Shown here in pieces: positions 6,003 through 64,000 of a stretch of DNA of 64,000 nt. Location of the stretch: assembly GCF_030389965.1 (NCBI RefSeq), contig NZ_CP128400.1, positions 2,356,001-2,420,000 of the forward strand. The letters run 5' to 3'. This stretch comes from Candidatus Chlorohelix allophototropha (GTDB lineage: Bacteria > Chloroflexota > Chloroflexia > Chloroheliales > Chloroheliaceae). A model generated the notes under the pieces. That model made no database searches. It was not told where the DNA came from and worked only from the letters and a program-made list of their open reading frames with translations. Position 1 is the first letter of the stretch; each line of letters begins with the position of its first letter. Position numbers and translations under genes: made by a program.

Positions 6003-6766
6003 CCGACACTTCTAAAACCCCGGTGCTTCAGGCTAAGGGTCTGGTTAAACGCTATGGGCATGTTACTGCTTTGGATGGCTGTGATTTTGAACTGTATCCG
6101 GGTGAGATACTGGCAGTTATCGGTGATAACGGAGCGGGTAAATCTACTCTAATCAAGGCGCTTTCGGGTGCGCTCATTCCAGATGAGGGTGAAATGTACC
6201 TGGACGGTAAGCGGGTAACATTTCACAGCCCGTTAGATGCGCGGCGTGCCGGAATAGAAACGGTGTATCAAGATTTGGCGGTTGCGCCTGCGCTGGATAT
6301 TGCCGATAACCTGTTTCTAGGTCGCGAACTCCGCCGCCCCGGTATTCTGGGTTCGGTTTTTCGGATGATTGATAAGAAGCGGATGGTGGATGAAGCTACC
6401 AACCATATGAAAGACCTCAAAATTGGAATACGCTCGATGCGACAGGCGGTAGAGACTCTCTCTGGCGGTCAGCGACAGGGTGTTGCGGTGGCACGTAGCG
6501 CGGCTTTTGCGCGCCACGTAGTTATCATGGATGAGCCTACCGCTGCGCTAGGGGTGAAGGAATCGGGCATGGTGCTGGACTTAATTCGGCGCGTCAAGGA
6601 AAAAGGCTTGCCGGTTATTTTAATCAGCCATAACATGCCGCACGTTTTTGAAGTTTCCGACCGGGTGCATATCCAACGCCTCGGCAAACGCGCCACGGTA
6701 ATTGAACCGCACAAGTTTAGTATGTCCGATGCGGTGGCAATTATGACGGGCGCTATGGTAGCCTAA
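5999..6766 (+). CDS. frcA: Sugar ABC transporter ATP-binding protein (FrcA-like, single domain)
   Basis: A 255-residue ATPase with a single nucleotide-binding domain: Walker A G-D-N-G-A-G-K-S-T (about 42-50), Q-loop in Y-Q-D-L-A, signature L-S-G-G-Q-R-Q-G, Walker B V-V-I-M-D-E-P-T-A-A-L, and switch His in I-S-H-N. Ribose and galactose importers use a fused double ATPase of about 500 residues; the short single-domain form is characteristic of the rhizobial fructose transporter FrcA. It powers import by dimerising on the permease. It is the last gene of the operon; a large hairpin lies 50 nt downstream. Confidence 0.9.
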   Translation: MTDTSKTPVLQAKGLVKRYGHVTALDGCDFELYPGEILAVIGDNGAGKSTLIKALSGALIPDEGEMYLDGKRVTFHSPLDARRAGIETVYQDLAVAPALDIADNLFLGRELRRPGILGSVFRMIDKKRMVDEATNHMKDLKIGIRSMRQAVETLSGGQRQGVAVARSAAFARHVVIMDEPTAALGVKESGMVLDLIRRVKEKGLPVILISHNMPHVFEVSDRVHIQRLGKRATVIEPHKFSMSDAVAIMTGAMVA

Positions 6767-31644: not shown

Positions 31645-34600
31645 TTATGCTACATCCAGTACGAAGCTGAATAGTTGCATTTTGCCCCCATATTGGAATT
31701 CCATCCAGAATTTGTAATTACCGGGTTTATCAAACTTGAGATTATAGACCAATGCTGCACCAGTCATACTATGCCCTTGCATACCCGTATTGGACATATT
31801 TTCCAGTTTAGAAATCTGCCCATTGACTAGCTGGAAGCTTTTACCATCTTGGGGTACTATCACCATAGTTGATATTTCACCCAGATAAGATTCAAGGTTA
31901 TTTAACGGCATGCCACTCTTATCAAAAGTGAAGGCGATTTGACTATCCTCTCCGGCTTTCAGCATATCCGGCAACATTAGAGTACCTTTCAAGTCTCCAA
32001 ATTGCTGGATAAACTGTTGATCCTGTGCGTTTGCATTTCCAGCTTTTTCTTGACCATCCCCAACCGTAATATCATGACGAATGAATATCTGTTGCCCGTT
32101 CTTCAACTGAATCTCATCGAACAAGGCATATTGCCCTGATAGCGGGAAATTAACCGTAAAGGTGTAAAGTCCCTGATTGGTTCCTTCTGGACTCAAGTGT
32201 TGGTAGAAACTCAGGTCTTTGTCTAACAGAATTAAATTCATCAGCTTAGTATTAACCGGTTCAATTTGATCGGCTGTTATGGCTCTACCCGTTTTTACAT
32301 TGGTTAGGCGCATAATAATTAGCGCAGGTTGTAGCGGTTGCGGTTTCTCTGGAAAGGTATCTACTTGGATAAAAGTGTCACCCAACTGGAAATTCGCGGA
32401 AAAATGAGCATTGTCCCCGCCCATACCCATGCCTGCGCTTCTAGGCACAGCATATCCCGATACCGTATTTGCGGATTGAAAGTAGGTGGTATAGGCTTGC
32501 CATGAAATTAATGCCACCAACCCAAGCATTGCCGCGACTAACCCTGCCTGCCACGCCAGCATCATTCGGCGTGTCTTTTTCTCTTTATCATTCAATGGCA
32601 AGGCAAACTTACTACGGAAGCGTCCTAACAGCAGTGAATTTGTTACCACCGTAACGCTGCTGATTGCCATTGCGCCTGCCGCCAATATCGGGTTAATAAT
32701 TCCGAAGATTGCCAAGGGTATAAGTAATAAGTTATAGAAGAAAGCCCAAAACAAGTTTTGCTTTATTTTGCGCATAGTGGCTTTGGATAAGGCAATACCG
32801 GTTGCTACGGCGCGTACATCTCCCTGTATCAGAGTAATATCGGCGACTTCCATCGCAATATCGGTTCCGGTTCCAATTGCAATACCAATATCAGCCTGCG
32901 CTAAAGCCGGGGCATCGTTAATACCATCGCCGACCATCGCCACGGTTTTACCTTCGGCTTGCAGTTTTTGCACCATTAAGGCTTTATCTGCCGGGCGCAC
33001 CTCTGCGAAAATTCTTTCAATACCAGCCTGTTTTGCAATGGTTTCGGCGGTACGCTGATTATCCCCGGTCATCATAACTGGTTCGATGCCCATTTTTTTG
33101 AGTTCGGCGATGGCTTCAGCGCTGGTGGACTTGATTGTATCTGCTACTGCTACAAGTCCTTCCGGTTTGCCATCAACCGCTACCAGCATAACCGTGCGCC
33201 CTTCGCTCTCAAGGTGGCTCATTTTTTCTTCAATTGAGGAGACGAGCGCTATTTCGTGCTGTGCCAGAAGGCGGCGAGTACCGACCAATATGCTGCGCCC
33301 GGAAATATTTGCGCTAACGCCTGCGCCAGTAAAGCTCTGGAAATTTTGAAGTTCTGCGCCGGGTGTATTAAGTTCAAAGCCTCTGGCTTTAGCTTCTCGT
33401 ACAATCGCTTCACCCAGTGGATGCTCACTACCTTTTTCGACTTGCGCCGCAAACTTCAGAATAGCGTTTTCGTCCAAAGTACCGAGTTTTACAATTCCGG
33501 TTACTTCCGGTTTACCTCTGGTAAGAGTGCCTGTTTTGTCGAAAATAACCGCTTTGATATTGCGAGCGCGTTCTAGGCTTTCGCCTCCTTTTATGAGAAT
33601 ACCCTGATCTGCTCCTGCACCGGTTCCAACCATAATAGCGGTAGGAGTCGCCAAGCCCAATGCACAGGGGCAAGCCACTACCAGCACTGCCACAGCGGGA
33701 AGTAAAGCTGCTTGAAAGTTGTGCCCGGTAAGCATCCAGCCTGCGAAACTGAGCAGCGCAATAACAATAATCACAGGTACAAATATACCGCTGATAGTGT
33801 CGGCAAGTCTTTGTACAGGCGCTTTACTGCCTTGCGCCTGTTCTACTAGCCTGATAATCTGGGAAAGTACAGTATTTCGTCCAATTTTGTTAGCTCTAAC
33901 CCATAATAAACCGTTCTGGTTAACCGTAGCGCCGATCGCAGTATCGCCCGGTTCTTTTTCAACCGGAATACTTTCTCCGGTGAGCATGCTCTCGTCAACA
34001 CTGCTGTTGCCCTTTTCAACGATACCATCCGCCGGAATCTTTTCGCCGGGACGTACCAGCAACAGATCACCCACAACCACCTCAGACAGTGGCAATTCAT
34101 ATTCCTGACCATTTCGGATTACTCTTGCGGTGCGGGGTTGCAAGCCCATCAGTTTGTGGATGGCATCGCTGGTGCGACTCCGGGCTACTAACTCAAGATA
34201 TTTACCTAGATATATCAAAGTAATGATAAGCGCGGTTGTTTCAAAATAGGTTACGGCTTCTCCGCCATTTGGTCCTATCGACATTCCGCCATCATTGGCA
34301 TATTTGTTTCCGAAGAAGAGCAACCATACGCTATAAAAATAAGCGGCGCTTGAACCCAATGATATTAGGGTATCCATATTGGCGGAAAAATGGCGGGCGG
34401 TTTTCAAAGCAACCTTATGGAATTCCCAGCCAATATCACCCCATACTAAGGTGGTTAAAATAAATAGAAACAAGTCTCGTAAAAAGGCGTTGCTAATCCA
34501 GGTCATCCCGAACATATTGATGACAAAAATCGGGATTGTCACTGCGAACGCATAAATAAGCTGGTTTCTGCGGCGCAATAATTCCTTTTGGCGGCGTTGG

Positions 34601-35274
34601 GTATCTTTGTCTTGTTCTACCGGAGCTTCACCGGCAGTTGTAGCTGGCTTTTTTACTGTCGGGGCGGCAGTTGAAGTTGGTTGTACCGCAACTTGGGCTG
34701 GCGCAACTTCTTGCTCAGAAGAACGTGCCCGGTAGCCTGCCGCTTCTATGGCATTGATTAGTTGTGGCACATTTACTTTATTTGTGTCAAAGAGCACAGT
34801 TCCACGTTCAGTAGCAAGATTAACCGCCGCGCTCTCGACTCCCTCAACTTTTTTCAGCTTCTTCTCAATGCGCGCCACACAACTGGCACAGGTCATACCC
34901 TCAATTTCCAACTCGACAGAAGTATGCTGTGCTAATGTATCTAAAGGTTTTTCAATTGTCTTAACTGCGGTTGTAGTTGGTGCAGGTTTTTCTTCTTCTA
35001 AGGGAGTGGCTTTGTAACCGGCGTTTTCCACCGCTTTAACCAATTCGCTAATGCCTACCTGCTGCGCATCAAACGACACCGTACCTTTTTCGGTAGCAAG
35101 GTTGACGGTTGCTTCCAATACTCCGGGAACTTTCTTCAATTTCTTTTCGATACGTATCACACAACTGGCGCAGGTCATCCCTTCTAGGGTCATTGTCACA
35201 GTAGATTTTGTGTTATCTGTATTATTTTCGTCTGAATTGGATACATCTGATTGCCTGTTGAGAAGCTCAGACAT
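31645..35274 (-). CDS. copA: P1B-type copper-transporting ATPase with C-terminal extracytoplasmic extension
   Basis: A 1209-residue ATPase, about 300-400 residues longer than usual CopA. Two HMA domains carry G-M-T-C-A-S-C (Cys35/38 and Cys129/132). The core has T-G-E-S (actuator), C-P-C in A-C-P-C-A-L-G (about 533-539), the phosphorylated Asp in D-K-T-G-T-L-T (about 578), the H-P of E-H-P-L-G-E and G-D-G-I-N-D-A-P. It should pump Cu(I) out of the cytoplasm. After the last core helix, one more membrane helix (about 890-910) leads to a ~300-residue extension with two beta-rich modules reminiscent of YtkA/FixH-like domains and a Met/Gly/His stretch. I infer that this tail receives or senses copper outside. 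A structured 177-nt gap separates it from copZ upstream. Confidence 0.9.
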
Positions 35275-35684: not shown

Positions 35685-36938
35685 TTAAACTACAGTCAAT
35701 TTTCCTGAATACATCCCCATGCTGCATATGTAGCGGATAACTCCGGGCGATTGTGCCGGAAGGTCAATATCGACTTGACCGGTAATGGGTAAAACTTTCC
35801 TGATGCCAAAACTTCCAATAGTGAACGACCGAGTGCAGCCGGTTGTGTTATTGGTTACCAGTCTGAGGCGAATAGGCTTACCGCTGCTTACCTGTTCCCG
35901 ATTGGGGACATAGGCTTCATCTTCCACCTTGATAACTACTAACTGATAATCGCCTTCCTGCAAATCGGCGGCGGCGGCAACTACATTTACGCTCTTGTTG
36001 CTCGGAAAGATTGAGGCGGTAATAGAGTTGATACTTATCGGTGATTCTAGCAGGTTTAACGCGCTATTAACCGAGAAAAGAGATAGTAGGATAATAGCAA
36101 CCGCCGCTATTTTCATAAATTTGGATTGCAACGCCGCCCCTAACTTTGAGGCAAAATAGCCCAATGTAAAGAATACCGGAGTTGTACCTAGAATGAATGC
36201 GCCCATAATCAAAGCGCCGTTAATCGCATTGCCGGAACTTATCGCCAACGCTTCCATTGCTACGGTAGTGCCGCAAGGAATCAATACGGTTAAGGTGCCA
36301 AGTATGGCGGTGGCGTAGAAATCATCGCTCTTACTGTAACGGCGCAGATAGCGCATTACCGAACGCGGTGGCTGGATCATCACATACCGGAAAATAGGGT
36401 GTACTTCGAGTAAATTTAGGGCAGTTGCCAACATAAATAAACCCGCCAGCAGGTTTATAATTCCCTGTAGAGTGTTGGTCATAGTAATCAATGAGCCAAC
36501 CCAACCCAATATTCCGCCTAGCAAGGTATAGGCAGTCAGTTTGCCACCCAGAAACACTAAAATGTTTACGGCGTGACCACCATCATTTTTACCTAGCTTT
36601 TGGCGATTTTGCTCGCGCTGCGCTATAGAAGTTGCCAGCAAGCCGCTCTGGACTGCCAAGCAAGAGAGACCGCCCATTGTTAGCCCCGTTAAAAAGACCA
36701 GCAATAAACTGCCCGCATCTGAAAATGAGGTAATACTATCAACCTTGAGTATCCAGGGTAACGCAAGAATGGCTAGACACCCAATACCCAGTAGTACCAT
36801 TACTATTATGCTTGCCTTATTATTGCTTAATTGAAGCGGTGTCTTGGTAATGACTTTTGCAGGTAATTCTGAAGCTTTGGTTTGAAGGCTGGGCGGCTCT
36901 ACTATAGTAGTTACTTTTGTTTTAAATTTTGTCGCCAT
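35685..36938 (-). CDS. TauE/SafE (UreH-2)-like membrane protein with C-terminal cupredoxin-like domain
   Basis: The 417-residue protein has one N-terminal membrane helix (about 42-66), then a six-helix DsbD/SafE-like unit (about 75-290) with G-L-S-C-L-A-V-Q-S-G and L-I-P-C-G-T-T-V-A-M-E, each placing a Cys or Pro-Cys in a membrane helix. A ~95-residue extracytoplasmic cupredoxin-like domain ends it, with T-T-G-C-T-R-S-F and I-C-S-M-G-M-Y-S-G-K. The Cys and Met residues in that last segment are likely copper ligands. It resembles fusions found in copper-handling loci, where the membrane part may move copper or electrons. It heads the copZ-copA operon. Its exact transport substrate is inferred, not shown. 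Confidence 0.8.
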   Translation of the reverse strand: MATKFKTKVTTIVEPPSLQTKASELPAKVITKTPLQLSNNKASIIVMVLLGIGCLAILALPWILKVDSITSFSDAGSLLLVFLTGLTMGGLSCLAVQSGLLATSIAQREQNRQKLGKNDGGHAVNILVFLGGKLTAYTLLGGILGWVGSLITMTNTLQGIINLLAGLFMLATALNLLEVHPIFRYVMIQPPRSVMRYLRRYSKSDDFYATAILGTLTVLIPCGTTVAMEALAISSGNAINGALIMGAFILGTTPVFFTLGYFASKLGAALQSKFMKIAAVAIILLSLFSVNSALNLLESPISINSITASIFPSNKSVNVVAAAADLQEGDYQLVVIKVEDEAYVPNREQVSSGKPIRLRLVTNNTTGCTRSFTIGSFGIRKVLPITGQVDIDLPAQSPGVIRYICSMGMYSGKLTVV

Positions 36939-38339: not shown

Positions 38340-41300
38340 ATGAAGCGGAGAAAGTTCTTAATCGGATTGGGGGCATCAGGAGCAGCGGCAGTTGCCATAA
38401 AACTCAGTCCCACCCAAGTAAGCGCGGTTGCTCAAACCAAGGGGGCGTATGATCCCACCAAACTTCCGTATTTACTAAAACGCAGAGTGACCCATGCAGA
38501 CAGGAAGCTGGCAGCTTCTAATCGGGCTGCTTTCTACAAAACCCATCCTCGCCTTGCAGGCGCCAACTCCAGTATTAATGCTACTGGTACAACTGCGGGC
38601 ATCTTGGCGGCAATTCCTACTCCTACACCCGGCGGTATCCCTGATTATTTCGGGTCATATCCAAACTATTCGTTGAGTCCAATACTTCCAAAATTTGTCG
38701 ACTCGCTGCCCGGTTTGACCTCGCTTGCTGGTGTTGGTCCTGGTTTCGGTAAAAATAATATCAATAATTATCTTCCGATAGCAGCTCCCGATACAACTTC
38801 TTATCCCGGTTCGGATTATTATGAAATTGGTTTGGTTGAATATAGCGGTCAATTTCATTCCAAGTTGGGTAAAACCAAGTTGCGCGGCTATGTGCAGCTA
38901 AATACCGTAGATAAAAATGGAGCTCCCCTCACAGACCTCTTAGGCAATCCGGTTACAACCACCCCTCATTACCTTGGTCCGGTTATTGTTGCTACAAAAG
39001 GTCGCCCAGTTCGGGTTAAATTCACCAACAAGTTAGCTACCGGCACGGGCGGAAATCTCTTTATCCCGGTTGATACCACCGTTATGGGGGCTGGAACGGG
39101 TTATAACAATACTAATAATACTACTCAGACTTATACTCAGAACCGCGCAACATTGCACCTTCACGGCGGTAATACCCCTTGGATCAGTGATGGTACTGCC
39201 CATCAGTGGACGGTTCCGGTTGGCGAAACTTCTACAACCTTAACCAAGGGCACCAGCTCGCAGGATGTACCGGATATGCCTCCCACTGGGGTAGGTGAAC
39301 TCACCTTCTACTGGACCAACCAGCAAAGCGGACGCTTGATGTTCTACCACGACCACGCTTATGGTATTACCCGCTTGAACGTTTATGCCGGGGAAGCGGC
39401 GGGCTATCTCCTGACCGATCCCGATGAAGCAAGCTTGGTGGCAGATGGCTCTGTTCCTCCACTTACTGATACAGTACCGTTGGTAATTCAGGACAAAACC
39501 TTTCTTGACTCAACTGTTAACACAACCCTAGCTAATGGTACCAATACGTTGCCCAATTGGCAGTTGCTCGACCCAACTTGGCCCTTCGCGGTTGATTCGA
39601 CTCGAAACGACCTGTGGTTCCCCCATGTTTATATGCCTAACCAGAATCCCTATGATTTCAGCGGGGCGAATGCAATGGGACGTTGGGATTACGGGCCGTG
39701 GTTCTGGCCCCCGATGACCACCATTGTAAATAAACCTACTCAGGCAAACCCATATTATGATCCGGCTAATCCTAGCTCTCCGCCGATTATCCCGGCTACT
39801 CCCAGTATTTCGATTGTGCCGGAAGGGTTTATGGATACGCCGATAGTCAACGGTCAGGCTTATCCTTATGTAGAAGTCGAGCCGAAGGCTTATCGCTTCA
39901 TGATTTTGAACGCTTGCAACGACCGCTTCCTTAACCTCCAGCTTTACAAAGCGCAGTCGCAAGCTGTGATGTGGAATATTGATGGCACCTTAAATGATGC
40001 CAACGCTGGTGAAGTAAAAATGGTTCCCGCTTCAAATGCAGCGGGTATCACATGGCCTGCAGATTGGCCTACACGCGATGGTCGTGATGGCGGTTTCCCT
40101 GATCCGGCAGCAATCGGTCCTAATTTTATCCAGATTGGTACTGAAGGTGGTTTGTTGCCTGCGCCTGTCACTATCCCGAACAGGCCAGTTGGTTATGACT
40201 ACAACCGCCGCAATATCGTAGTGCTGAATGTGCTTGAAAAAGCTCTGTTCCTAGGTCCTGCCGAACGCGCCGATACTATCATTGACTTTTCCGCATATGC
40301 AGGTCAAACCATAATTCTGTATAATGATGCGCCTGCTCCGGTTCCGGCTTTCGACCCACGCAATGATTATTACACCGGCGCTCCGGATCAAACCTCGACC
40401 GGTGGTGCACCTACAACAGTGGCTGGTTACGGTCCTAATACTCGCACCATCATGCAAATCCGCGTTAAAGCTGCGGTTACTACGCCCAATAACTATAAAT
40501 CGGGACAAATCGCTGCCTCTTTGCCTGCGGTTTTCGCCAAAACGCAAGACCGGATTATTGTCCTGAACAATAACTACAATAGTGTTTATGGCGTAACCAA
40601 TCTTCCGGCAGATTCTTATGTCAGGATCCAGGATACGGCTTTGGCTAGCACCAATATTAAGGACAATAGACTCTATAACAATATAGTTAATGGAATCACC
40701 CTTACTAATGCTGGAACAGGCTATGTCACTCCTCCCGTAGTTACCGTTAGCGGTGGCAATGGCTTAGGTGCAACGGCAGTTGCCAATATGGTAACAACCG
40801 GGGTTGTACAGTCTTTCAATCTGTTGAGCGGTGGTGCTGGTTATACTGTACCTCCGACCGTTACGTTAGCAGCTTCTCCGGCAGGTGTAAGTGGTCAGGC
40901 TACTGCAAGGGCTATTTTGTCACCGACTTCGATCGCTTCGATCGCGGTAACCAACGGTGGTAGCGGCTACACTACTGCTCCTACCGTAAATATCACCGGC
41001 GGCGGTGGTACTGGTGCAACCGCAACGGCTGTACTCAAAGGCGGCGGGGCGGTAGCCAGCATAACTATTACGAACGGTGGTAGTGGTTATAACAGAGCTC
41101 CAACTCTAACGCTTTCGGCTCCTCCGGCTGGTGGTGTCAGGGCAACTGCTACTGCGACAATAGCTCGTAGAGTTACTGCACTTACTTTAACCAATGGCGG
41201 TACCGGCTACACTACTGCTCCAACTGTAAACATTACCGGTGGTGCCGGAACTGGCGCAACTGCAACGGCTGCTATCTCTGGTGTTCTAAACACCATAACT

Positions 41301-43067
41301 GTTGGAAACGGTGGTACCGGATATCGAAACGCTCCTACTGTAAATATCACCGGTGGCGGTGGCACCGGTGCAACCGCATCGGCTACTGTAAACAGGAATA
41401 CAGGTAGAATTACTGCTATTACTATAACTAACCGTGGTTCAGGCTATACAAGCGCTCCCACTATAAGCTTTACCGGTGGCGGTGGCACCGGCGCAACTGC
41501 AACCGCAGCTATCATTAATGTAGTAGTAAGTCTTACGCTTACAAGCGGTGGTACTGGCTATACCGGAACTCCTACAGTCAGTTTCACCGGTGGCGGTGGA
41601 ACCGGCGCGGCTGCAACGGCTACAGTGGCAAGTGCGGTTAATGCTATTACGTTGACTAATGCCGGTAGTGGTTATACTACTGCTCCTACGGTAACATTTA
41701 ATAATAATGGTACCGGTGGAACCGGTGCAACGGCTACTGCTACCCTGCTGAGCGTGATTGGCAGCATAACTGTAACAAACCCCGGCAGTGGCTATACAAG
41801 CGTTCCGACAATAAGCTTTAACGGTGGCGGTGGAACCGGCGCGGTTGCAACAGCCCTACTTAATCCTACCTCGGTGGCTGGTATAACTGTTGTTGTCGGT
41901 GGGAGCGGTTACACAACTGCCCCGGCTGTGACTATCACTTCTGCTAATGCTAGCGGTGGTGGCGCGGCGGCAATTTCCGTACTGGCACACAACGGCACTG
42001 TTGGGTCTGTAACTGTCACTAATGGTGGTGGCGGCTTCTTAACTGTACCAACGGTTACCTTCTCGGCTGCTCCAGCGGGTGGTGTCCCAGCAGCAGGTTT
42101 CGCAACAATTGCTTCTAGTCCGTTGACTATGCCACTGGAGCCAAAAGCGATCCAGGAACTGTTCGATATGAACTACGGTCGAATGAATGCTATCTTGGGA
42201 ACTGAAATCCCGAACACCACCGGTGTGAACCAGACGACACTCCCGAATGCTTTCATTGATCCGCCGAATGAAATCATTAAAACCGCTGATTACACTCAAC
42301 CGATTGGCTCAACGGCAGATGGTACCCAAATCTGGAAGATCACGCACAACGGTGTAGATACCCACGCGATCCATTGGCACCTAATGAACGTGCAGGTAAT
42401 CAACCGGGTAGGATGGGACGGTGCAATTAGGGTACCGGATGCCAACGAACTAGGTTGGAAGGAAACTGTGCGGATGAACCCATTGGAAGATATCATTGTG
42501 GCTTTACGACCATACGCGCAAAACCTGCCTTGGGATCTTCCTAATAGTGTACGCTACATGGATCCAACCCAAAAGGCTGGCGGAAGCGCTGACTTTACGG
42601 GAGTAGATCCTAATAACTTACCAGCGCCGGTTACTAACGATTTGGTTAACTTTGGCTGGGAGTACACGTGGCACTGTCACTTGTTGGGTCACGAAGAGAA
42701 CGATATGATGCGCCCTATCATCTTTGGGGTAGCGCCTAAAGCTCCTACTAGTGTTACTACAAGTGCAGCAGCTGGTTCAGTGACTGTAAACTGGACGAGC
42801 ATTGCCAAGAACGCAACAGGTTTCACCGTTCAGAGAGCTACCGCTTGGAATGGTCCTTGGACTACTGTTGGGACAACAGGGGCTACAACATATACCTATC
42901 AAGATAAGACTACTGTCAAGGGAACTACCTATTTCTATCGGGTAATTGCCAACAACGTGGTCGGTTATACCAAGGCATATCCTGCAGTCGGTACAACTAA
43001 GGTTGGGTATCCGAACGCTTCGTTCGACTCAACGCCTACAAACGCACTACCGGTTTCAGCCTTGTAA
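38340..43067 (+). CDS. Giant Tat-exported multicopper oxidase with 12-repeat insertion and FN3 domain (copy 1)
   Basis: A 1575-residue protein. The N-terminus M-K-R-R-K-F-L-I-G-L-G is a twin-arginine signal. All four copper motifs are present: H-L-H-G-G (about 272), Y-H-D-H-A (about 336), H-A-I-H-W-H (about 1340) and W-H-C-H-L-L-G-H-E-E-N-D-M (about 1443-1454), the last with the type 1 Cys and an axial Met ten residues on. Between the second and third cupredoxin parts, residues about 782-1258 hold 12 tandem Gly-Tyr-x-x-x-Pro repeats. An FN3 domain (about 1475-1560) ends the protein. H-L-H-G-G-N-T-P-W and the size recall giant MofA/OmpB-type oxidases linked to Mn and Fe minerals; the substrate here is unknown. 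A tatA gene follows. Confidence 0.9.
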   Translation: MKRRKFLIGLGASGAAAVAIKLSPTQVSAVAQTKGAYDPTKLPYLLKRRVTHADRKLAASNRAAFYKTHPRLAGANSSINATGTTAGILAAIPTPTPGGIPDYFGSYPNYSLSPILPKFVDSLPGLTSLAGVGPGFGKNNINNYLPIAAPDTTSYPGSDYYEIGLVEYSGQFHSKLGKTKLRGYVQLNTVDKNGAPLTDLLGNPVTTTPHYLGPVIVATKGRPVRVKFTNKLATGTGGNLFIPVDTTVMGAGTGYNNTNNTTQTYTQNRATLHLHGGNTPWISDGTAHQWTVPVGETSTTLTKGTSSQDVPDMPPTGVGELTFYWTNQQSGRLMFYHDHAYGITRLNVYAGEAAGYLLTDPDEASLVADGSVPPLTDTVPLVIQDKTFLDSTVNTTLANGTNTLPNWQLLDPTWPFAVDSTRNDLWFPHVYMPNQNPYDFSGANAMGRWDYGPWFWPPMTTIVNKPTQANPYYDPANPSSPPIIPATPSISIVPEGFMDTPIVNGQAYPYVEVEPKAYRFMILNACNDRFLNLQLYKAQSQAVMWNIDGTLNDANAGEVKMVPASNAAGITWPADWPTRDGRDGGFPDPAAIGPNFIQIGTEGGLLPAPVTIPNRPVGYDYNRRNIVVLNVLEKALFLGPAERADTIIDFSAYAGQTIILYNDAPAPVPAFDPRNDYYTGAPDQTSTGGAPTTVAGYGPNTRTIMQIRVKAAVTTPNNYKSGQIAASLPAVFAKTQDRIIVLNNNYNSVYGVTNLPADSYVRIQDTALASTNIKDNRLYNNIVNGITLTNAGTGYVTPPVVTVSGGNGLGATAVANMVTTGVVQSFNLLSGGAGYTVPPTVTLAASPAGVSGQATARAILSPTSIASIAVTNGGSGYTTAPTVNITGGGGTGATATAVLKGGGAVASITITNGGSGYNRAPTLTLSAPPAGGVRATATATIARRVTALTLTNGGTGYTTAPTVNITGGAGTGATATAAISGVLNTITVGNGGTGYRNAPTVNITGGGGTGATASATVNRNTGRITAITITNRGSGYTSAPTISFTGGGGTGATATAAIINVVVSLTLTSGGTGYTGTPTVSFTGGGGTGAAATATVASAVNAITLTNAGSGYTTAPTVTFNNNGTGGTGATATATLLSVIGSITVTNPGSGYTSVPTISFNGGGGTGAVATALLNPTSVAGITVVVGGSGYTTAPAVTITSANASGGGAAAISVLAHNGTVGSVTVTNGGGGFLTVPTVTFSAAPAGGVPAAGFATIASSPLTMPLEPKAIQELFDMNYGRMNAILGTEIPNTTGVNQTTLPNAFIDPPNEIIKTADYTQPIGSTADGTQIWKITHNGVDTHAIHWHLMNVQVINRVGWDGAIRVPDANELGWKETVRMNPLEDIIVALRPYAQNLPWDLPNSVRYMDPTQKAGGSADFTGVDPNNLPAPVTNDLVNFGWEYTWHCHLLGHEENDMMRPIIFGVAPKAPTSVTTSAAAGSVTVNWTSIAKNATGFTVQRATAWNGPWTTVGTTGATTYTYQDKTTVKGTTYFYRVIANNVVGYTKAYPAVGTTKVGYPNASFDSTPTNALPVSAL
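40685..42110 (+). repeat. 12 tandem coding repeats inside oxidase copy 1
   Basis: Each unit of ~35-40 residues reads approximately I-x-[VL]-T-N-G-G-[ST]-G-Y-x-x-[AP]-P-T-[VIL]-x-[IF]-x-G-G-G-G-T-G-A-x-A-x-A. Codon choice varies between units, so they are old repeats rather than a recent expansion. Confidence 0.85.
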
Positions 43068-44427: not shown

Positions 44428-47400
44428 ATGAAGCGTAGGAAGTTCCTTATAGGGTTAGGGGCAACCGGAGCAGCAGTAGCTACTCTGAATATTAAAGCCC
44501 CCTCTACAAGCGCGCTAGCTCAATCCAAGGGTGGGTATGATCCCACGAAACTCCCGTATTTACTGAAACGCAAAGTTACCCATGCAGACAGGAAGTTGGC
44601 TGCCTCTAATCAGGCAAAGTTCCGCAAGGTCAGACCAGGCGTAAGAGGAGTCGACTCTAGCATTAATGCTACTGGTACAAATGCGAATATATTGGGAACA
44701 GGTCCTACTCCAACCCCGGGTGGTATTGCTGATTATTTCGGTACCGACCCAAACTGGGCGTTAAGTCCTACAACAATTCGCAAATTCGTTGACTCATTAC
44801 CCGGGTTGACCCCTGCCGGCGCCAATACTCGCGGGAGTTTTATTCCTTTGGGTGCTCCTGATACAACTTCTTATCCGGGTTCGGATTATTATGAAATCGG
44901 CTTGGTTGAGTATGATGCCCAGTTCCATTCCGATCTGGGTTTGACCAAGTTGCGAGGTTATAAACAACTAAATACGGTAGATAAGAACAATGCGCCTCTC
45001 AAAGATCCATTTGGGAATGCAGTTACAACTACCCCTCATTACCTTGGTCCTATCATTGTTGCCCAACGTGACCGACCAGTTCGCGTCAAATTTACTAACC
45101 TGTTGCCCTCCACGGCGAATGGCGGCAATCTCTTTATCCCGGTAGATACTACCGTAATGGGCGCCGGTACGGGTATTAATGGCGCAAAATATACTGAAAA
45201 CCGCGCCATACTTCACTTGCACGGTGGTAATACTCCCTGGATCAGTGACGGTACTGCTCATCAGTGGACGGCTCCGGTAAGTGAAAACTCTACCACGCTG
45301 CTAAAGGGTGTCAGCGCGCAAGATGTACCGGATATGCCTGCCACGGGAGCAGGTGAGCTTACTTTCTATTGGACCAACCAGCAAAGCGCTCGCTTGATGT
45401 TCTATCACGATCATGCTTATGGCTTGACCCGTCTAAACGTTTATGCCGGTGAGGCAGCGGGCTACATCGTTCAGGACCCGGATGAGCAGAGCTTGGTGAC
45501 AAACGGCTCGATTCCGCCTCTTACCGATACTATTCCTCTGATAATTCAGGATAAGACCTTTATTGACTCAGATTCAACTAGTTATAATTATGTTTTGACG
45601 CTCGATCCAACTTGGCCCTTCGCGGTCGATTCAACTCGAAATGACCTGTGGTTCCCCCACGTATATATGCCCAACCAGAATCCCTATGATTTGAGTGGGG
45701 CAAATGCAATGGGACGTTGGGATTACGGGCCGTGGTTCTGGCCCCCGAATCTCACTATCGCACATCTACCTACTCAGACGAACCCATACCAAGATCTCAA
45801 TAATCCCGGCTCGCCGCCGATTATTCCGGCGACTCCTAATGCTTCGATTGTGCCGGAAGGATTTATGGATACACCGCTGGTTAACGGTCAGGCTTATCCT
45901 TATTTGGAAGTCGAGCCGAAAGCTTACCGTTTCATGGTTTTGAATGCCTGCAACGACCGCTTCCTTAACCTACAGCTTTACAAAGCAAAATCGCAAGCCG
46001 TGATGTGGAATACTAACTCTAATGGCGTAGCAACCACATTGAATGACGGCGATGTCGGTGAAGTGAATATGGTTCCGGCTGCTCCCGGTGTATGGCCTGC
46101 CGGTTGGCCTACTGCCGATGGTCGCGATGGTGGTTTCCCCGATCCTCTGGCAGTTGGACCTAATTTTATCCAGATTGGTACCGAAGGCGGTTTATTGCCT
46201 GCGCCTGTCACTATCCCGAACAGACCGGTTGGCTATGATTACAACCGCCGCAATATCGTAGTGCTGAACGTGCTTGAAAAAGCTCTCTTCATGGGGCCTG
46301 CCGAGCGCGCCGATACGATTGTTGACTTTACCAATTACGCAGGTCAAACCATAATTCTGTATAATGATGCGCCCGCTCCGGTTCCGGCTTTCGACCCACG
46401 CAATGATTATTACACCGGTGCCCCGGATCACTCGCTGACTGGCGATGGTACCGGAGGCGCTTATACAACAATGCCGGGTTACGGACCGAATACTCGTACC
46501 ATTATGCAAATTCGGGTTAAGGGTACGGTTGCTACTTCAAACAACTATGTATCGGGCAAGATTGCTACCACTTTACCTGCGGTTTTTGCCAAATCTCAGG
46601 ATCGGGTTATTGTTCTAAACAATAATTACAATAGTACCTATGGAGTAAATAATCTTCCGACAGATTCTTACGTCCGTATCCAAGACAAAACTACTTCGAA
46701 AGGTGTCTATAACAATATAGTTTCTGGCATTGCCCTCACAAATGCAGGTTCAGGCTATGTCAATCCTCCAACAGTAACTATTAGTGGCGGCTACGGTGTA
46801 GGTGCAACGGCTGTTGCCAATATGGTGACTACCGGTATAGTGCAGTCTTTCAACCTGTTGAGCGGTGGTGCTGGCTATACCCAACCTCCTACAGTTCTAT
46901 TAGTTGCTCCTGCGGTAGGTGGAGTGCAAGCAACTGCAAGTTCTACCTTGGCTGGGACATCGATAAAATCTATCGCGATAGTCAACGGTGGTACTGGCTA
47001 CTCCTCCGCTCCAACAGTAAATATCACTGGCGGCGGTGGGAGTGGTGCAACTGCTACTGCGGTACTCAAAGCCGGTGGCACAGTAAGCAGTATTACTATT
47101 ACCAATCGCGGTGCTAACTATACTTCTGCTCCCACTGTAACCTTATCTGCTCCCCCAGCCGGTGGAACGAGGGCAACTGCTACTGCAACAATGACTCGTT
47201 TGGTTAGTGCCCTTACCTTAACCGGGGCTGGTACTGGCTACTCATCTGCTCCAACTGTAACTATCAGTGGTGGTGGTGGTAGTGGTGCAACCGCAACTGC
47301 AACTATCACCGGTTATATAAGTAATATAACTGTTGGAAACGGCGGCTCCGGTTATCGAAATGCGCCTAATGTAGCCATCAGTGGCGGTGGCGGTACTGGC

Positions 47401-49110
47401 GCAGCCGCAACTGCTACTATAAACAGGACGACTGGTAAAGTTACCCTTATCACAATTACTAACGCCGGTACTGGATATACATCTGTACCAACAGTAACAC
47501 TGTCAGGCGGTAGTGGCACCAATGCTACAGGTACGGCAACTATTTCTACTAAGGTGGCAAGTCTAACTATTACAGCCAATGGTAGCGGCTATACCGGAAC
47601 TCCAACAGTAAGTTTCAGCGGTGGTGGTGGAACTGGCGCAGCGGCTACAGCAACAGTGTCCAGTTCGATTGCTTCAGTCACCGTGGTTAATGCAGGTAGT
47701 GGCTATACTACAGCTCCAACAGTAAGCTTCAGCGGTGGTGGTGGAACTGGCGCAGCCGCTACAGCCTCATTGACTGGTTCGATTGCCAGCATTACGGTTA
47801 CAAATGCGGGTAGCGGTTACACTTCGTTACCTACCGTAGGTTTCAGCGGTGGTGGTGGTAGCGGTGCAACTACTACTGTTGTGCTTAACCCGACCTCGGT
47901 TGCCGCAATAACGATTGTTAACGGTGGTAGTGGCTACGCTACTGCTCCGGCTGTATCTATCACACCTACCGATGGTAAGGGTGGGGGCGCAGCAGCAACT
48001 TCCGTGCTGGCGCACAATGGCATTGTCAAGGATGTCACCGTTACTAATGGTGGTGGTGGTTATATATCTGTACCAACTGTCACCTTCTCGGCTCCTCCGA
48101 GTGGTATAACAACTGTGGGTACTGCGGCTATACTAAAAAGCAACTTGACCCTGAAGTTGGAGCCAAAATGCATCCAGGAACTGTTTGAGATGGAATACGG
48201 ACGGATGAATGCTATCCTTGGTAGTGAAGTCCCGAACACCACCGGTGTGAACCAGACGACGCTCCCGAACTCTTTCATTGATCCGCCTAATGAAATCGTC
48301 AAAGACTCTGACCCTACACAACCGATTGGTTCAGCGGCAGACGGAACCCAAATCTGGAAGATAACGCATAACGGTGTAGATACCCATGCGATCCACTTCC
48401 ACTTGTTCAATGTGCAAGTGCTAAATCGGGTAGGTTGGGATGGCGCGGTCAGATTGCCAGATGCCAACGAACTCGGTTGGAAGGATACTGTGCGGATGAA
48501 CCCATTGGAAGACTGTATTGTGGCTTTGCGTCCGTTTAAGCAAAACCTACCCACTACCGGCGCTTGGGCTGGCGGGCTTCCCAATAGTGTTCGCTCGATG
48601 GATGTCACCCAACCGACTACCTCGACTATGGGCTTTACCGGCATAGATCCGACTAACATGCCAGCGCCTGTTACAAACCAGAAGATTAACTTCGGCTGGG
48701 AGTACACTTGGCACTGTCACCTGTTAGGTCACGAAGAGAACGATATGATGCGCCCTATCATCTTTGGGGTTGCACCGGTCGCTCCTACTGGTGTGGCTGC
48801 AACCGCACAAGTTGGCAAAGTGGTAGTGGGCTGGACGAACGCTGCACGTAGCGCAACGCAGTTCACTGTTCAGAGAGCTACCACCTGGAATGGTCCTTGG
48901 ACAACTCTAGGTTCACCGGTGCCGGTAACAGTAGCAACTACTTATTCCTATACTGATACCACTGTTGTGAGTGGCACTACCTACTTCTACAGGGTGATTG
49001 CCAGCAACGTGGTCGGTTATACCCAGACCTATGCTGCTCCAAGTGTTGGGTATGCCAATACTTCAATCGACTCAACGCCTGCAAATGCACTTCCGGTTTC
49101 AGCGTTGTAA
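44428..49110 (+). CDS. Giant Tat-exported multicopper oxidase with 12-repeat insertion and FN3 domain (copy 2)
   Basis: A 1560-residue paralogue of the oxidase upstream, colinear throughout. It has the same twin-arginine start (K-R-R-K-F-L-I-G-L-G), copper motifs H-L-H-G-G (about 263), Y-H-D-H-A (about 327), H-A-I-H-F-H (about 1318) and W-H-C-H-L-L-G-H-E-E-N-D-M (about 1428), 12 repeats at about 761-1233 and a terminal FN3 domain. The third copper motif has Phe instead of Trp next to its last His. The two proteins have diverged: 16 of the first 60 coding bases differ, and repeat sequences differ in most units, yet repeat number and order are kept. Both copies retain all copper ligands, so both are probably active, perhaps with different substrates or expression. 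Confidence 0.9.
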   Translation: MKRRKFLIGLGATGAAVATLNIKAPSTSALAQSKGGYDPTKLPYLLKRKVTHADRKLAASNQAKFRKVRPGVRGVDSSINATGTNANILGTGPTPTPGGIADYFGTDPNWALSPTTIRKFVDSLPGLTPAGANTRGSFIPLGAPDTTSYPGSDYYEIGLVEYDAQFHSDLGLTKLRGYKQLNTVDKNNAPLKDPFGNAVTTTPHYLGPIIVAQRDRPVRVKFTNLLPSTANGGNLFIPVDTTVMGAGTGINGAKYTENRAILHLHGGNTPWISDGTAHQWTAPVSENSTTLLKGVSAQDVPDMPATGAGELTFYWTNQQSARLMFYHDHAYGLTRLNVYAGEAAGYIVQDPDEQSLVTNGSIPPLTDTIPLIIQDKTFIDSDSTSYNYVLTLDPTWPFAVDSTRNDLWFPHVYMPNQNPYDLSGANAMGRWDYGPWFWPPNLTIAHLPTQTNPYQDLNNPGSPPIIPATPNASIVPEGFMDTPLVNGQAYPYLEVEPKAYRFMVLNACNDRFLNLQLYKAKSQAVMWNTNSNGVATTLNDGDVGEVNMVPAAPGVWPAGWPTADGRDGGFPDPLAVGPNFIQIGTEGGLLPAPVTIPNRPVGYDYNRRNIVVLNVLEKALFMGPAERADTIVDFTNYAGQTIILYNDAPAPVPAFDPRNDYYTGAPDHSLTGDGTGGAYTTMPGYGPNTRTIMQIRVKGTVATSNNYVSGKIATTLPAVFAKSQDRVIVLNNNYNSTYGVNNLPTDSYVRIQDKTTSKGVYNNIVSGIALTNAGSGYVNPPTVTISGGYGVGATAVANMVTTGIVQSFNLLSGGAGYTQPPTVLLVAPAVGGVQATASSTLAGTSIKSIAIVNGGTGYSSAPTVNITGGGGSGATATAVLKAGGTVSSITITNRGANYTSAPTVTLSAPPAGGTRATATATMTRLVSALTLTGAGTGYSSAPTVTISGGGGSGATATATITGYISNITVGNGGSGYRNAPNVAISGGGGTGAAATATINRTTGKVTLITITNAGTGYTSVPTVTLSGGSGTNATGTATISTKVASLTITANGSGYTGTPTVSFSGGGGTGAAATATVSSSIASVTVVNAGSGYTTAPTVSFSGGGGTGAAATASLTGSIASITVTNAGSGYTSLPTVGFSGGGGSGATTTVVLNPTSVAAITIVNGGSGYATAPAVSITPTDGKGGGAAATSVLAHNGIVKDVTVTNGGGGYISVPTVTFSAPPSGITTVGTAAILKSNLTLKLEPKCIQELFEMEYGRMNAILGSEVPNTTGVNQTTLPNSFIDPPNEIVKDSDPTQPIGSAADGTQIWKITHNGVDTHAIHFHLFNVQVLNRVGWDGAVRLPDANELGWKDTVRMNPLEDCIVALRPFKQNLPTTGAWAGGLPNSVRSMDVTQPTTSTMGFTGIDPTNMPAPVTNQKINFGWEYTWHCHLLGHEENDMMRPIIFGVAPVAPTGVAATAQVGKVVVGWTNAARSATQFTVQRATTWNGPWTTLGSPVPVTVATTYSYTDTTVVSGTTYFYRVIASNVVGYTQTYAAPSVGYANTSIDSTPANALPVSAL
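46710..48125 (+). repeat. 12 tandem coding repeats inside oxidase copy 2
   Basis: Same repeat type and number as in copy 1 (units marked by S-G-Y-V-N-P-P, A-G-Y-T-Q-P-P, T-G-Y-S-S-A-P and so on). One unit has A-N-Y in place of S-G-Y. Units correspond one to one with copy 1. Confidence 0.85.
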
Positions 49111-59887: not shown

Positions 59888-61364
<1,477 letters not shown>

Positions 61365-61590
61365 TAGGGATTAGAGCTGATCTCACGATCAGTTATCCCA
61401 GGTCAATGCGACAAGCATTGAAAGCGAGATAGGATGTCGGAAGAGGTGCGAAAGTAGGCATAGCCGAAAAGTAGCCCCACTTCGGTTCACTCGACTGGAG
61501 TTTGTCGTAACCTGTAGCACAGTATAACTGTGCAATAAAGGAATTTTGGAAAAGGCGTAGGCGATTATTCTAACGTTCTTTCTCAAAGAA

Positions 61591-61620
61591 CTATTCAATA
61601 TTTTTTCTCTGTCACTCCTC
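61591..61620 (+). other. 3' strand of the pre-16S processing stem
   Basis: Complementary to 59751-59768 and 59784-59795 over nearly its whole length, with a single G-U pair; it lies about 230 nt after the 16S end. A small hairpin GTTCTTT-CTC-AAAGAAC (61575-61591) precedes it. Confidence 0.85.
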
Positions 61621-61679
61621 GCATGTTAGGGTGGGCTCTTGAGAGGGCAACATCACTCGTGACCAACCCATTTAATTAT

Positions 61680-61752
61680 GGGGATGTAGCTCAGTTGGGA
61701 GAGCACCTCCTTTGCAAGGAGGGGGTCAGGGGTTCGAGCCCCCTCATCTCCA
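61680..61752 (+). tRNA. tRNA-Ala (anticodon TGC)
   Basis: A 73-nt cloverleaf: acceptor GGGGATG/CATCTCC with discriminator A, D-arm A-G-C-T-C-A-G-T-T-G-G-G-A-G-A-G-C, anticodon stem CCTCC/GGAGG with loop TTTGCAA (anticodon TGC, Ala), and T-arm with GGTTCGAGCC. CCA is not encoded. It sits in the 16S-23S spacer; the tRNA-Ile often found beside it is absent. Confidence 0.96.
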
Positions 61753-61899
61753 TCGACCCAAACAGATGGGCGAGTACTAGCAGTAAGCACATTAAAAAGC
61801 GAATAGAGGATTTGAGGTCCAAAGAAATAAAGAAAATTGTAAGAGTAACCTGTAAAAGTGTCTCGGAATAAGCGAGGGACTTAACGGGGGAGTTAAGCA
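61753..61899 (+). other. Spacer between tRNA-Ala and 23S rRNA
   Basis: No second tRNA. Part of the 23S processing stem is expected here; near its end CTTAAC-GGGGGA-GTTAAG (61879-61896) forms a small hairpin just before the 23S 5' end. Confidence 0.6.

Positions 61900-64000
<2,101 letters not shown>

Follow-up and report, generated by a model that had tools for sequence, protein, structure and literature searches.

What is a long array of near-identical-length repeats doing inside a multicopper oxidase, and why do two neighbouring genes carry it with exactly the same number of units? The question is raised by two tandem open reading frames in the window analysed here, a stretch of 64,000 nucleotides from Candidatus Chlorohelix allophototropha. 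Gene A (38340..43067, plus strand) encodes 1575 amino acids and is assigned as a multicopper oxidase by the Pfam Cu-oxidase_2 model, a PhsA/CueO-like NCBIfam model and homology to CotA. Its paralogue, gene B (44428..49110, plus strand), encodes 1560 amino acids and is 76% identical to A from end to end; both are real open frames. A twin-arginine type signal stands at the start of both proteins, that of A being the Tat-type MKRRKFLIGLGASGAAA.

Just ahead of the oxidases, the minus strand carries two adjoining genes. One of them (35685..36938; Pfam PF13386 and PF13473) encodes a DsbD-like membrane domain with a cupredoxin, possibly involved in copper handling, and the other (31645..35274; Pfam and NCBIfam) encodes a CopA-type copper P-type ATPase of 1209 amino acids with heavy-metal-associated domains and a long C-terminal extension. 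It is plausible that these neighbours provide a copper-supply context for the oxidases. The right end of the window (59888-64000) is occupied by a ribosomal RNA operon (16S, tRNA-Ala, 23S).

In A, cupredoxin domain 1 (38685..39524, plus strand, residues 116-395) contains the motifs HLHGG (at 39156, residue 273) and YHDHA (at 39345, residue 336). Domain 2 follows at 39780..40559 (plus strand, residues 481-740), and domain 3 (42108..42734, plus strand, residues 1257-1465) contains HAIHWHL (at 42363, residue 1342) and HCHLLGHEENDM (at 42672, residue 1445). The corresponding motifs of B begin at residues 263, 326, 1320 and 1429, the last two in its domain 3 (48145..48774, plus strand; HAIHFHL at 48385, HCHLLGHEENDM at 48712). 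All four copper-ligand motifs (HxHG, HxH, HxxHxH and HCHxxxHxxxxM) are thus intact in both proteins. Sequence alignment with CotA, the best solved relative, covers all three cupredoxin domains of A and B, and the profile of alignment A1 matches CotA at 8e-61. Judged by motifs and predicted fold, A and B belong to the CotA-like multicopper oxidases, with an enzyme core of a known kind. Beyond the core, the C-terminus of A (42735..43064, plus strand) resembles a fibronectin type III domain (phmmer to the Fn3-like 3mpc, E 7e-4), as does that of B (E 9e-6); when scanned alone, the Fn3-like segment gave no Pfam match.

The repeat array of A (40674..42107, plus strand, residues 779-1256) consists of 12 units of 38-42 amino acids, each of about 40 residues around the core G-Y-x-x-x-P, and agrees closely with the position that an earlier note on this DNA had given (40685-42110). 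The array of B (46708..48129, plus strand, residues 761-1234) also has 12 units, the fourth with NY in place of GY. Both arrays sit in the segment that links the second cupredoxin domain to the third, directly ahead of the latter, whose first strand is 'MPLEPKAIQELF'. Array-less homologues place the boundaries of the insert at '...SYVRIQDT' and 'PLEPKAIQELF'. The earlier note had correctly placed the array just before the third cupredoxin part, with the copper motifs in the first and third parts, and had described 12 units in register in each paralogue; unit-by-unit comparison likewise is best on the diagonal. For nearly all units of A the best match is the same-numbered unit of B (60-80% identity), with off-diagonal values mostly at 30-60%. 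Since the units correspond one to one between the paralogues, the 12-unit array must be older than the gene duplication, and the equal numbers in A and B are, on this sequence evidence, a matter of common descent. The same repeat number in two paralogues therefore need not imply selection for that number.

Within A, the units share on average 57% DNA identity and at most 74%, showing that they are not recent copies. For A against B, dN/dS is 0.22 within the array and 0.15 over the three-domain core, meaning that the array sequence is under purifying selection, if somewhat less constrained than the core. Its composition is peculiar: Asp, Glu and Cys are absent, there is a single His, and Thr, Gly and Ala together make up about 55% of the residues. 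Genes A and B are the only places in this genome where the array was found.

The earlier note proposed that the array splits the catalytic fold. L008, a homologue that carries six units at the site used in A and B, speaks against this. It was modelled whole with AF2, and its predicted core superposes on CotA over 468 residues (2.4 A, Z 27.8), this whole-fold evidence coming from the homologue model while A and B themselves are tied to CotA by sequence alignment. The superposition spans model residues 3-1112, that is, across the array. As the core of this homologue is intact on both sides of its array, the enzyme would not be split; rather, the array leaves and re-enters through a surface connection. 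Of the two roles that had been suggested for the repeats, to loop out of the enzyme or to scaffold it, looping out is the probable one, the array of the homologue being extruded, in the model, from the linker between domains 2 and 3.

If the number and order of the units were themselves selected, as the earlier note had also supposed, relatives should keep them; it had named widely varying number and position among orthologues as the observation that would speak against it, and such variation is what we found. Among relatives sampled from Bacillota, Actinomycetota, Chloroflexota, Planctomycetota, Methanoperedens and others, the site occupied in A and B holds 0, 2, 4, 6, 8 or 12 units, a range that gives no support to selection for a fixed number of 12. 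Many homologues, some of them close, have the same copper motifs and no array at all. Arrays were found at four sites in the oxidase family: before domain 3, earlier in the linker between domains 2 and 3, inside domain 2, and in an N-terminal loop, the three sites other than that of A and B holding 2 to 38 units. Earlier-linker arrays have 6 (L005) or 4 units (L006 and L027), and those inside domain 2 have 2 units (L038 and L110). The nearest homologue, L110, which belongs to the same GTDB family, combines 8 units in the linker between domains 2 and 3 with its 2 in domain 2. In the N-terminal loop, which is short in array-less relatives, arrays of 2 to 38 units stand between 'PNYANSP' and 'GGIRKFVD'. 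They are usually phase-shifted by half a unit, the latter half of a unit opening the array and the former half closing it, and the total is nonetheless whole and even. Unit number and position are thus, as far as these sequences tell, not fixed in the oxidase family. At the upper extreme, the protein encoded from nt 6360 of a Dehalococcoidia locus (L010) has 4057 residues, with 36+2 units ahead of domain 1 and a further 4 in the linker between domains 2 and 3; an open frame of equal length (4057 aa) stands at the matching place in G218, a genome of the window's phylum.

A different regularity emerged from these counts. All cleanly counted oxidase arrays, the phase-shifted N-terminal ones included, have an even number of units (2, 4, 6, 8, 10, 12, 14 and 36+2); in the divergent actinobacterial arrays L012, L020 and L030, the count of 12 was made partly by eye. 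Parsimony on the oxidase-core tree gave 34 changes of unit number over the four sites, every one of them an even step, and seven of these occurred within existing arrays (for example 8 to 12, 6 to 8, 4 to 6 and 2 to 4). Were odd and even steps equally likely, the chance of seeing only even ones would be 6e-11 for the 34 changes and 0.008 for the seven within-array changes, both values assuming independent changes and carrying the uncertainty of the core tree. It therefore appears, from the sequences compared, that the conserved quantity is parity and not number. Alternation of two unit types was considered as a basis for the pairing but found no support, as odd and even inner units of the oxidase arrays show no systematic difference (p 0.65 for the multicopper oxidases, p 0.04 over all arrays). 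Nor does similarity peak between next-but-one units, at 50.1% against 51.1% for immediate neighbours. Together, the missing peak and the likeness of odd and even inner units mean that duplication by pairs has left no trace in the sequence, and that any pairing would join equivalent halves.

The same repeat is met outside the oxidases. By profile, the GY-x3-P unit (about 38 residues) matches many PHROG virion families (701, 460, 5342, 708 and others), with E values down to 1e-82, placing the similarity of the array far beyond chance; by tblastn it was also met in cyanophage structural proteins and across viral loci. A first, cruder count of viral clusters gave 86 even and 24 odd of 110, the odd ones including ten isolated single hits and several others that by eye were missed or half units. 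We recounted contiguous arrays only, grouped by flanking sequence, with a counter aware of half units. Taking whole-number modes, 30 of the 31 viral flank families with at least two units were even, and the exception, called as 5, reads as 6. A further 13 flank families gave half-integer counts, mostly two-unit arrays in which the last strand or half unit went unrecognised, and four had a single unit; some viral arrays do end in half units or miss strands. All seven viral arrays that start about 20 residues or less from the first Met have exactly 2 units. Two viral loci are worth recording for their architecture. At L159 (2733-10538), with an odd terminal array, the gene is frameshifted inside the array, three units lying in one frame and the fourth in another. 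At L151 (2736-10439), a viral protein of more than 2500 residues combines GY-x3-P pairs with a subtilase domain and with YHYH domains that give weak cupredoxin-like matches.

The array alone found no match in Pfam even at E 10, the NCBIfam scan of the full-length protein placed no match within it, and a sequence search of the PDB with it returned nothing credible, the matches to 3ip1 (a zinc alcohol dehydrogenase) and 7kgz (a beta-glucuronidase) being dismissed as chance. Fold searches with the model of the window protein, in which the array is of low confidence, retrieved oxidase parts or meaningless matches and no convincing fold for the array, and none of the solved structures or viral models matched it. 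Among viral proteins, the model gave only one significant fold match, a 'copper oxidase' of 1102 residues from a giant virus, Satyrvirus (A0A3G5AHN9). A literature search for the GY-x3-P motif or for even-repeat rules returned nothing relevant. In the resources consulted here, then, the repeat is known only within the PHROG virion families, with neither a curated Pfam family nor a solved structure. Both AF2 models give three strands per unit with a period of 39 residues, at low pLDDT in the array (about 40-60), and any fold proposed from them is accordingly tentative. Covariation within the unit (I24-A34, G26-G31, V22-A34 and T23-T33, from about 880 effective sequences) indicates that the second and third strands, s2 and s3, form an antiparallel hairpin. 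The covariation gave no sign that the closing strand of a unit pairs in hairpin register with the opening strand of its successor (s3-s1'), and this arrangement was discarded; where equivalent positions in neighbouring units appear coupled, homogenisation of the repeats confounds the signal.

How, then, could evenness arise? It is likely, in our judgement, that the array forms a beta-rich accessory insert, built of two-unit modules and extruded from a surface linker of an intact, exported CotA-type oxidase, with a role in spacing or binding. According to this model, two consecutive units, about 78 residues, probably close into one folding module, and the 12 units of A and B would make six modules. 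The ends of each pair would lie close together, allowing pairs to be accommodated in almost any exposed loop or terminus with the host fold undisturbed. An odd unit would remain unpaired, and arrays would for this reason lengthen and shorten in twos.

An alternative is that the units stack into a beta-solenoid or continuous rod, and that evenness reflects only the need for entry and exit to share a side when a loop receives an insertion, because the chain changes direction with every unit when the strands per unit are odd in number. Both AF2 models, with three strands to a unit, fit this idea, as does the fact that every oxidase array is a loop insertion with conserved sequence on both sides. 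However, the extreme N-terminal viral arrays have no loop to close and still have exactly two units, an observation easier to explain by a pair that folds as a unit than by loop closure alone, and the covariation at the s3-s1' junction lacks the hairpin register; we therefore regard the rod as rather unlikely. More doubtful still is the reading of the array as a mostly disordered, flexible Gly/Thr linker whose only role is to space domain 3. The low pLDDT and the abundance of Gly, Thr and Ala would suit it, but a random coil has no need of even counts, and the regular hydrophobic strand pattern, the strict periodicity of the predicted strands, the covariation within the unit, the purifying selection on the array and the one-to-one conservation of units between A and B all speak against it. 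Finally, the array is flanked by the two halves of the trinuclear copper site and might be pictured as an integral lid over it, acting in catalysis or substrate gating. Such a lid is hard to reconcile with the many close homologues that have the same copper motifs and lack the array or carry it in other loops, or with the near absence of charged and metal-binding residues from the array, and we consider it the least probable of these readings.

Returning to the two-unit module, the modules in the oxidase would most likely form a surface-displayed spacer or a binding scaffold, directed at the cell surface, the matrix or an insoluble substrate, and would have no part in catalysis. The combination of an uncharged, Thr- and Gly-rich surface insert of variable length with an Fn3 domain in an exported oxidase suggests display, spacing or binding. 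More broadly, the repeat is shared between phage particles and the exported oxidases of bacteria and archaea. One may speculate that this widespread repeat, found in secreted multicopper oxidases of many phyla and in phage virions, is a new mobile beta module made of a pair of about 78 residues, whose arrays change in length by twos, a view towards which we lean on balance. A paired repeat of this kind would be a natural cassette for loop insertion, and the even-number rule leads to a concrete and testable structural prediction, namely that the pair is the domain. A and B present a known enzyme fold that carries an uncharacterised repeat insert quantised in pairs.

Comparison with known systems places these features in context. 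Like CotA laccase and bacterial bilirubin oxidase, A and B have three cupredoxin domains and all of the copper-ligand motifs, the structural likeness being given by the homologue model (Z 27.8). They differ in size, with 1575 and 1560 amino acids against the 513 of CotA, and have in addition long loops in domains 1 and 2, the 12-unit insert before domain 3, an Fn3-like C-terminus and a Tat-type export signal. The OmpB/MofA-type extracellular oxidases of metal-cycling bacteria also invite comparison: OmpB is, in the excerpt that serves as our source, likewise a multicopper oxidase of large size that is exported and has a fibronectin type III domain (PMC5566968). Homologues of A and B were found in Geobacter-related genomes (L060, L063 and L075). 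The same excerpt cites EXXE as the Fe(III)-binding motif of OmpB (PMC5566968); this motif is absent from A and occurs once in B (ELFE, 1251). It mentions no repeat arrays in OmpB (PMC5566968), whereas A and B have them. A relationship of A and B to the OmpB/MofA-type extracellular oxidases is plausible by analogy, the likeness being one of size and Fn3 domain. The arrays of phage virions, for their part, share with A and B the same unit by profile and the even numbers, mostly 2 or 4 in phages. They are found, however, in head, tail or baseplate proteins, whereas those of A and B belong to a secreted enzyme and reach 12 units, and 38 in a relative.
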